A DNA stretch of 37,277 nucleotides, taken from Brachyspira sp. GTDB taxonomy: Bacteria > Spirochaetota > Brachyspiria > Brachyspirales > Brachyspiraceae. The notes beneath the pieces were generated by a model. That model ran no database searches, had not been told where the DNA came from, and saw only the letters and a program-made list of their open reading frames with translations. Below are positions 30,540 to 32,317 of the stretch, piece after piece (the stretch's first letter is position 1; every line of letters starts with the position of its first letter). Made by a program: the position numbers and the translations under genes. The stretch spans positions 1 to 37,277 of the forward strand of contig NZ_JARHYI010000024.1 of the NCBI RefSeq assembly GCF_029258575.1, in the 5' to 3' direction.

Positions 30540-30580
30540 AGAGATGTATATTTTATGTATGCATCTCTATTTTTATATTT
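30540..30580 (+). terminator. Intrinsic terminator after the metal ATPase
   Basis: A 10-base stem, AGAGATGTAT (30540-30549) with ATGCATCTCT (30559-30568; one G-U), a 9-base loop, and the T-rich tail ATTTTTATATTT. Confidence 0.85.
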
Positions 30581-30607
30581 GACATTAAAGAGAAATTATA
30601 ATATTAT
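30579..30607 (+). promoter_or_regulatory. Promoter for the repeat-bearing small ORF and the O-acetyltransferase genes
   Basis: TTGACA (30579-30584), a 17-base spacer, TATTAT (30602-30607); predicted start near 30614. It lies right after the terminator of the metal operon, so the downstream genes have their own transcript. Confidence 0.75.
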
Positions 30608-30640
30608 ATTTGAGATAACTTTATAATAGGAGTCTTAATC

Positions 30641-30736
30641 ATGTTGGTAACCGAACCGAACCGAACCGAACCGCACCCGCTTCGTGCCGCACATTTTATC
30701 TTATTCTTATACAAAACATTCTTTATTTTATTCTAA
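30641..30736 (+). CDS. Tiny leader ORF carrying a pentanucleotide tandem repeat
   Basis: 31 codons: MLVTEPNRTEPHPLRAAHFI then LFLYKTFFILF. It has a strong promoter (30579-30607) and a ribosome binding site AGGAG (30628-30632) 8 bases before the ATG, so it is probably translated. Residues 4-11 are coded by the ACCGA repeat, giving TEPNRTEP. The peptide is unlike known families. It ends 168 bases before the O-acetyltransferase gene. With one more repeat unit, or two fewer, the frame would instead read through to a TGA at 30921-30923, overlapping the acetyltransferase start at 30905 by 19 bases. That alternative frame has no stop over about 80 codons. Whether the peptide has a function or is only a switch is unknown; a dispersed repeat element is the alternative. 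Confidence 0.5.
   Translation: MLVTEPNRTEPHPLRAAHFILFLYKTFFILF
30650..30673 (+). repeat. Pentanucleotide tandem repeat (ACCGA x 4.8)
   Basis: Four perfect ACCGA units (30650-30669) followed by ACCG (30670-30673), then a GC-rich continuation CACCCGCTTCGTGCCGCAC to 30692. Unit length is not a multiple of three, so copy-number change alters the reading frame of the ORF at 30641. Confidence 0.95.
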
Positions 30737-30904
30737 CTTAGTATATTATTACAAATCTTTTAAGCATACTTTATCTTATTTTAGCTTAGTTTTTTATATC
30801 TGTTTTATTCAGCATTCTAATATAATAGGCAATTTATTATATATTTCATTCTATTTAGTAAAAAAAATATTTTTAAATAAAAAATTTATAGTTGTGGAAT
30901 TATT

Positions 30905-32317
30905 ATGTTATTTAGCTCTATGATTTTTTTATGGTTTTTTCTACCTTTAGTGTTTTTTGCCTATTATATAATAGATAAAAGATTTAGAAATGTATGGCTT
31001 CTTATAGCTAGTATTGTATTCTATGCTTGGGGAGGGGCTAATTATACTCTAATAATGTTTTCTTCTATAATTATCAATTATGTTTTTGCATTGTTAATAG
31101 ATAAAGCAATAGAAAAAAATAATACATTAAAAAAGAAAATATATTTAGCCTTATGTATAATCATTAATTTATTAATACTAGGATATTATAAATATACGGA
31201 TTTTGCTATATCAATAATTAATTTAATATCTGCTAAAGAAATAATAGGTTTAAAAAATATAGTTCTTCCTATAGGAATATCTTTCTATACCTTTCAAGCT
31301 TTATCTTATGTTATAGATGTTTATAGAGAAGAAAATAAAGCTCAGAAAAATATTATTAATTTAGCTTTATATATTTCTTTCTTTCCACAGTTAATAGCTG
31401 GACCTATAGTTAAATATCATGATGTAGATATACAAATAATTAAAAGAACAGAGAGTTTAGAAAATATTAGTTATGGTATTAAAAGGTTCATTTATGGACT
31501 GTCTAAAAAAGTAATATTAGCAAATATGTTTGCATTATCCTGTGATGAGATATTAAAACAACCTGTAAGTGAATTAAGTACAGTTTTAGTATGGTTAGCA
31601 GGTTTATTGTATACACTTCAGATTTATTATGATTTTTCTGGTTATTCTGATATGGCTATAGGTCTGGGTTATATGTTTGGATTTAAATTTTTAGAGAATT
31701 TTAATTATCCTTATATATCTAAATCTATTCAAGATTTTTGGAGAAGATGGCATATATCTTTATCTACTTGGTTTAAGGAATATTTATACATTCCATTAGG
31801 TGGTAATAGAAAAGGAAAATATTTTACTTATTTTAATCTATTTATAGTATTTTTTGCTACAGGTTTATGGCATGGAGCTAGTTTTAATTTTATTCTTTGG
31901 GGCTTATGGCATGGACTTTTTTTGATATTAGAGCGTATATTTTTAGGTAAGCTTTTAGAAAAAAATAAATTTGCATTTATTAATCATATATATGTAATAT
32001 TTGTATTTGTATTAGGCTGGGTACTTTTTAGAGCTAATGATTTAAAGCATGCTTTTGATTTATATAAAGTTATGTTTAGTTATCAGGAAAGTATTTATAC
32101 TATAAGATATTTCTTTTATCCGCAAACACAACTTTGTTTTGTATTTGGTATATTATTCAGCGGTTTATTTCAAAGTTTATTTCCAAAGATTAAAGAGGCT
32201 GTATTTTCAAGTAAGATCTATATATTAGAAAGCATTATTCAATTTATACTTCTATTCATTTGTATTATGTATTTGGTGAATGGTACTTACAATCCTTTTA
32301 TTTATTTTAGATTTTAA
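30905..32317 (+). CDS. MBOAT-family O-acetyltransferase (AlgI/PatA-like)
   Basis: 470 residues, with about ten membrane helices. It moves acetyl groups across the cytoplasmic membrane for O-acetylation of an extracellular or periplasmic glycan. Motifs: FYTFQALSYVIDVYRE (about 127-142), YYDFSGYSDMAIGLG (about 241-255), RRWHISLSTWFKEYLYIPLG (280-299) and ATGLWHGASFNFILWGLWHG (318-337) with the catalytic histidine. AlgI, DltB and PatA share these. The AlgX/AlgJ-like gene follows after three bases, forming the usual two-component acetylation pair. Start is ATG at 30905 with GTGGA upstream. The substrate polymer is not indicated by neighbours. Confidence 0.9.
   Translation: MLFSSMIFLWFFLPLVFFAYYIIDKRFRNVWLLIASIVFYAWGGANYTLIMFSSIIINYVFALLIDKAIEKNNTLKKKIYLALCIIINLLILGYYKYTDFAISIINLISAKEIIGLKNIVLPIGISFYTFQALSYVIDVYREENKAQKNIINLALYISFFPQLIAGPIVKYHDVDIQIIKRTESLENISYGIKRFIYGLSKKVILANMFALSCDEILKQPVSELSTVLVWLAGLLYTLQIYYDFSGYSDMAIGLGYMFGFKFLENFNYPYISKSIQDFWRRWHISLSTWFKEYLYIPLGGNRKGKYFTYFNLFIVFFATGLWHGASFNFILWGLWHGLFLILERIFLGKLLEKNKFAFINHIYVIFVFVLGWVLFRANDLKHAFDLYKVMFSYQESIYTIRYFFYPQTQLCFVFGILFSGLFQSLFPKIKEAVFSSKIYILESIIQFILLFICIMYLVNGTYNPFIYFRF

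Follow-up and report, generated by a model that had tools for sequence, protein, structure and literature searches.

A pentanucleotide-repeat leader as a predicted frame-gated translational switch of an MBOAT/AlgX-like operon in Brachyspira

Introduction

The window analysed here, a stretch of 37,277 nucleotides from Brachyspira sp. (positions 1 to 37,277 of contig NZ_JARHYI010000024.1, NCBI RefSeq assembly GCF_029258575.1), carries a short leader open reading frame (ORF) with a pentanucleotide array, followed by an operon encoding a membrane-bound O-acyltransferase (MBOAT) and an AlgX-like protein. We propose, with a probability of roughly three in four, that the reading frame set by the array gates translation of the operon and that the leader thereby acts as a phase-variable translational switch. 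Gains and losses of units by strand slippage would decide in which frame the leader ribosomes come out of the array. In the ON phase these ribosomes would read as far as a stop codon located at the MBOAT start or shortly past it, melt a hairpin that sequesters the MBOAT Shine–Dalgarno (SD) sequence and then reinitiate at MBOAT, whilst in the OFF phases they would stop mostly 18–171 nt upstream, leaving the hairpin closed and both MBOAT and the AlgX-type enzyme poorly translated. To judge from the MBOAT and ALGX domains, the likely outcome would be on/off acetylation of an exported (surface) glycan. The mechanism suggested by the initial annotation, in which repeat slippage decides whether ribosomes reach the acetyltransferase start, is supported in outline and strengthened by the hairpin, which that annotation had not seen.

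Results

The leader and its array in the window

The terminator, promoter, leader and operon features described here all lie on the + strand. A sigma-70-type promoter (30579–30607; TTGACA-17-TATTAT, 11/12 matches) precedes an AGGAG SD sequence (30628–30632) and a leader ORF of 31 codons (30641–30736; ATG 30641, TAA 30734–30736), whose codons 4–11 contain a perfect period-5 run (30649–30673; AACCG x5.0, equivalent to ACCGA x4.8), and in all of these elements the initial annotation was reproduced to the base. The layout TTGACATTAA..TATAAT is also present 5′ of the leader in most relatives. The upstream gene, for a P-type ATPase, has an intrinsic terminator (30538–30570; 14-pair stem with a T tail, one found vs 0.1 in shuffled sequence) that sets the leader's transcription unit apart from it. 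The other + strand promoter-like sites (9/12) are all upstream of this terminator, and the promoter scan of the window returned none on that strand between the leader and MBOAT; given this layout of promoter and terminator, the leader is the first ORF of the transcript. A role for the array as a promoter spacer was rejected, since it lies downstream of both the promoter and the leader SD sequence.

Behind the perfect units is a degenerate GC-rich tail (30670–30692), at the place where relatives carry intact ACCGC units, and it probably represents a decayed ACCGC-type array. Near-matches to ACCGAACCGA number 4 in the window vs 0.13 expected. Among the genomes, which were examined by sampling, the window's array occurs once in its own genome and its core is absent elsewhere in the genus, which removes the possibility, raised in the initial annotation as a point that would tell against its reading, that the GC-rich block is an element scattered away from gene starts; most other arrays inspected stand at gene starts or in leaders.

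In its present frame the leader stops at 30734–30736 and the window's genome is predicted to be OFF, with the gain of one unit or the loss of two predicted to turn it ON. One unit more would extend the leader to 95 codons, ending at a TGA (30921–30923) at +16 relative to the MBOAT ATG, in a frame that crosses the MBOAT start without meeting a stop (30674–30923), and one unit less would end it at 30739–30741; both outcomes had been foreseen by the initial annotation. Its view that so long a stop-free run is unlikely by chance also stood, since shuffling the 231-nt spacer, with dinucleotides kept and the SD region fixed, left this frame open through the MBOAT start in 0.3% of trials (P = 0.003).

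Conservation of the arrangement across the genus

We compared 26 Brachyspira genomes, one per species. An MBOAT orthologue (74–88% identity) was found in 16 of these and was absent from the three genomes that represent other genera in the family; no arrays were found upstream of MBOAT relatives outside the genus. A search for the leader in related genomes, as proposed by the initial annotation, showed that each of the 16 orthologous loci has, in the corresponding position, a leader start (ATG) with a pentanucleotide array, whilst the encoded peptides (TAPHR, IASHR, STAQH, TEPNR, TIQYN, TEQNR) proved to be unrelated. Period, position and stop-free reading are conserved; sequence and encoded peptide are not. 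The arrays range from 5 to 16.4 units (25–82 nt, median 12.3), with ACCGC as the unit in nine loci, ACAGC in three, and ATCGC, ACCGA, ACAAT and ACAGA in one each. The MBOAT gene tree, most inner branches of which lack strong support, requires at least seven unit changes and at least six phase changes. Genomes G004 and G006 have spacers that are 98% alike and MBOAT genes that are 93.5% alike, yet their units differ throughout (ATCGC vs ACCGC), and the whole array must therefore have turned over, whilst G002 and G020 are exactly one unit apart with near-identical flanks. The five-base repeat is probably hypermutable.

The three frames behave differently at these loci. The frame that would fuse the leader to MBOAT is closed in 16/16, by stops 18 to 171 nt upstream, and a fused product was accordingly rejected. 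In every case frame 2 can be read through to the MBOAT start, with its stop at +16 (11 loci), −2 (three), −5 (one) or +43 (one), so that, as in translational coupling, the upstream ORF either finishes at the start of the downstream gene or extends across it in 16/16. The third frame is closed in 10 loci and ends at +8 in the other six, and in these six species two of the three phases may thus be ON. Taking one value for each of the 11 spacer clusters, the combined shuffle probability was ~4e-11, a figure that is overstated to the extent that the clusters remain related. Judged by these sequence comparisons, the leader and array arrangement across the genus is not due to chance. The present phases (frame 2 in six loci, frame 1 in seven and frame 0 in three) are compatible with equal shares, and therefore no phase is fixed. 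In keeping with simple sequence repeat (SSR) phase variation, which is a known class, the unit is non-triplet (period 5) and placed to decide the frame at all 16 loci, and its number differs between related genomes (16 species).

Two further observations were made on individual loci. The MBOAT gene of G019 (L050) is apparently frameshifted within its first 100 codons, with leader and array intact. In G018, two near-identical promoter-leader-ACCGC cassettes (L099, L100) run off contig ends; the array probably breaks assemblies here, and the controlled genes are hence unseen.

A hairpin at the MBOAT start

The MBOAT SD sequence (GGAA here, GGAG in most relatives) lies in the 5′ arm of a predicted hairpin (30892–30902), whose 3′ arm (30913–30923) covers MBOAT codons 3–7 and holds the ON-frame stop. 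The predicted stem pairs the SD sequence (CATGGAGTTA) with MBOAT codons 3–6 (TAGCTCTATG) and leaves the start codon in the loop. Because the usual stop at +16 is in the 3′ arm, a leader ribosome would traverse and open the 5′ arm. The hairpin is predicted in 16/16 orthologues (mean z −3.2), and the probability that the SD sequence is unpaired is at most 0.15 in 15 of them and 0.51 in the window's genome. With arms matched by position in a script, since the DNA alignment did not bring the two arm spacings into register, pairing occurred at 93% of positions vs 33–41% when the arms were slid; in some species the SD sequence sits 2–3 nt further upstream.

The same leader-plus-hairpin layout recurs in a paralogous MBOAT group (L051, L053, L063) with AAACC arrays, in which one frame ends at −2 or +8 and the others are closed 36–42 nt upstream. 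In these three paralogues the SD unpaired probability is ~0, vs 0.08–0.46 in seven array-less ones, which mostly lack the hairpin. Array-bearing and array-less MBOAT genes, outgroups included, differed in SD accessibility (Mann–Whitney p 3e-5) and folding energy (p 3e-6), values that serve as guides given that related sequences are not independent. Altogether, the SD sequence is sequestered in a predicted start-site structure in 18/19 array-bearing MBOAT genes, as expected of a masked ribosome-binding site, and the window's copy is the exception. Beyond MBOAT, a hairpin was predicted at the arrayed genes of L137 and L134 and at a second gene in L124. The frame-dependent coupling of leader and acetyltransferase that the initial annotation had proposed thus draws support from 16 loci that differ in repeat unit and phase, in which the fusion frame is closed, the coupling frame open and the SD sequence within a predicted hairpin.

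The MBOAT/AlgX-like operon

MBOAT (30905–32317; 470 aa, Pfam PF03062, E 2e-32) is followed by an AlgX-like gene of the SGNH type (32321–34057; PF16822, E 8e-12), which starts at a TTG (32321) or, more likely, at an ATG (32333), 4–16 nt past MBOAT. Both matches are above the curated cut-offs and identify a pair of MBOAT and AlgX-type SGNH proteins in one operon; the only NCBIfam match, to DltB, is far under its cut-off (154.9 of 375 bits). The adjacency of PF03062 and PF16822 proteins resembles AlgI/AlgX-type exopolysaccharide O-acetylation, from which the present case differs in that the pair is not part of an alginate cluster in this window. The operon upstream of the leader (28168–30517), which finishes at the terminator and has no relation to the leader, encodes an ArsR-family regulator and a metal P-type ATPase.

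Discussion

Alternative explanations

Several observations weigh against the proposed switch. With 5 units vs the median of 12.3, the window's array is shorter than any of the other 15, and it has a degenerate tail; its spacer is long (231 nt), and its SD sequence, GGAA, lies in the weakest of the hairpins (z −1.7, SD unpaired 0.51). Changes in the hairpin arms are mostly one-sided G-U exchanges and the swap test (0.55) was not significant, for which reason we speak of arm complementarity rather than proven covariation and dropped covariation as proof of the hairpin. Most orthologues retain their own GGAG, which could leak, and the arrayed loci L119, L120, L125 and L131 are without a strong hairpin; since several arrayed leader genes are of this kind, the hairpin is not needed in general.

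It is possible, if somewhat doubtful, that the switch in the window's genome is a relic, in which the array has shrunk and decayed and the operon is stuck OFF or kept at low, constant expression through the weakened hairpin. The short array, degenerate tail, long spacer and weak hairpin with its GGAA would all fit such decay; however, the spacer still has one open frame at the shuffle probability given above, and the MBOAT and AlgX-like ORFs are intact. Neither are five units disqualifying, since tracts of four to five pentamers remain capable of switching in Haemophilus influenzae, where a high switching rate was measured for the (GACGA)4 repeat of hsdM (PMC2651432). The window's switch may be slow, decaying or stuck OFF, and because its array is the shortest and its hairpin the weakest of the 16, present-day switching is less certain in this genome than in its relatives.

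Transcriptional polarity, which we regard as unlikely, would act on the same frames: leader RNA left bare by an OFF stop would allow Rho or RNases to end or degrade the transcript before MBOAT, with the hairpin incidental. The frame evidence is identical to that for a translational switch, the OFF stops leave 18–171 nt of RNA untranslated and some arrayed leaders have no hairpin, but polarity does not predict that the MBOAT genes with an array should be the ones with an SD hairpin, and OFF stretches of 50–100 nt are short for Rho loading. That the leader encodes a fixed regulatory peptide or attenuator, to which the array is incidental, appears very improbable: leader start, promoter and position are indeed conserved, yet the encoded peptides are unrelated, copy number and frame vary freely and an Rfam search of the leader matched no family, and a fixed attenuator or riboswitch was rejected on account of the unrelated peptides and the lack of an Rfam match. 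Least credible is a functionless microsatellite of the kind that might arise anywhere in a genus where pentamer arrays are common, since the array is kept in place in 16/16 loci despite unit replacement and with a clear frame asymmetry, the pattern strand is that of the next gene in 28/29 inspected arrays (p 6e-8), and none of the 44 tabulated units contains a stop when read in the sense direction, whereas only ~58% of random pentamers would be free of stops.

Relation to known systems

The frame-gated translational switch proposed here combines elements known separately. In H. influenzae, lex2A directly precedes lex2B. The former carries a tetranucleotide repeat and the latter is a lipooligosaccharide glycosyltransferase (PMC2651432, PMC3116884). 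In both that system and the present one, a gene for surface modification is preceded by a short ORF that contains a non-triplet repeat; the two differ in the repeat (tetranucleotide there, pentanucleotide here) and enzyme class and share no homology. The hsdM repeat is alike in its pentanucleotide unit and very few copies, but is inside the coding gene, has no coupled leader and targets a restriction-modification (R-M) gene. Repeat-controlled acetylation of a surface glycan, the target that we infer here, is known from the H. influenzae O-antigen acetylase oafA (PMC2651432), in which, unlike here, the repeat is a tetranucleotide in mid-gene without leader coupling. The stop/start overlap, and a downstream SD sequence in a stem that would be opened by the upstream ribosome, are features of masked ribosome-binding sites. 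Coupling by ribosome melting of such sites occurs in RNA-phage and ribosomal-protein operons; there it is constant, whereas here the frame would be set by the repeat, making coupling stochastic and heritable.

The literature searched yielded nothing relevant on phase variation, SSRs, phasevarions or pentanucleotide repeats in Brachyspira, nor on translational coupling combined with repeats. Typing papers based on variable-number tandem repeats exist for Brachyspira, and their loci may or may not coincide with the present arrays. As far as searched, then, no description exists of the leader-plus-hairpin layout, of the turnover of units or of their genus-wide occurrence in Brachyspira. The genus includes the agents of swine dysentery and intestinal spirochaetosis, and genus-wide switches on surface and R-M genes, if real, would have consequences for strain variability, for the choice of antigens and for tandem-repeat typing. 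The leader-plus-hairpin layout would also allow a frame-shifting repeat to switch a gene without placing repeat residues in its protein.

Other repeat arrays in the genus

A degenerate search found pentamer arrays in 25/26 genomes of the genus, although its reversed control also matches pentamer arrays and the counts are thus not a clean excess. About 32 arrays were inspected, some in the first codons of ORFs, others in leaders and the rest of no clear class, and the window's own genome holds at least five further arrays. Leader arrays with one frame overlapping the start of the next gene, several by ATGA, were seen at L121, L125, L131, L134 and L137. First-codon arrays occur in genes for an N6/N4 DNA methylase (L136), Eco57I-type R-M proteins (L155, L170), small lipoproteins and an outer-membrane protein, and similar arrays also precede or begin glycosyltransferase genes across the genus. 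We incline to the view that Brachyspira possesses a genus-wide, largely pentanucleotide-driven phase-variable gene set that includes the leader and SD-hairpin cassette as a frame-gated translational switch; the cassette would have arisen at least twice in MBOAT genes, and arrays in leaders or 5′ ends would also control R-M, glycosyltransferase, lipoprotein and transporter genes.

Among individual loci, AGCAC arrays occupy the first codons of Eco57I-type R-M genes in the window's genome (L170; G000:C139:4989, array 1498–1532) and in G004 (L155, 9229–9298), both of which are candidate phase-variable R-M (phasevarion) genes. L136 (3018–3076, G002) has CAGAC x11.8 at the 5′ end of a gene for an N6/N4 DNA methylase whose C-terminal domain is Mrr-like; this candidate phase-variable DNA methyltransferase is apparently out of frame in the present assembly. 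In G001, near-identical ACAGT-array leaders (L128, 3056–3097; L130, 3004–3030) stand before paralogous outer-membrane beta-barrel genes, and the array frame can be open into the beta-barrel ORF. CAGAC or ACCAG arrays lie at the 3′ end of an ORF at L138 (4555–4605), L162 (1499–1565) and L135 (3009–3045), and the gene that follows is preceded by a similar element (ttacaacctat...). Finally, periods other than five occur as well: among the arrays of five or more copies in a 400-kb sample of G004, two were 7-mers, and the 5-mer, 4-mer and 12-mer classes had one each. The same genome carries AAAC x39 (L149, 9739–9895) and a pair of heptanucleotide arrays (L141, 486–622; L153, 15258–15318), and at L141 and L153 one frame continues into a long ORF, so that 4- and 7-mers may switch genes too.
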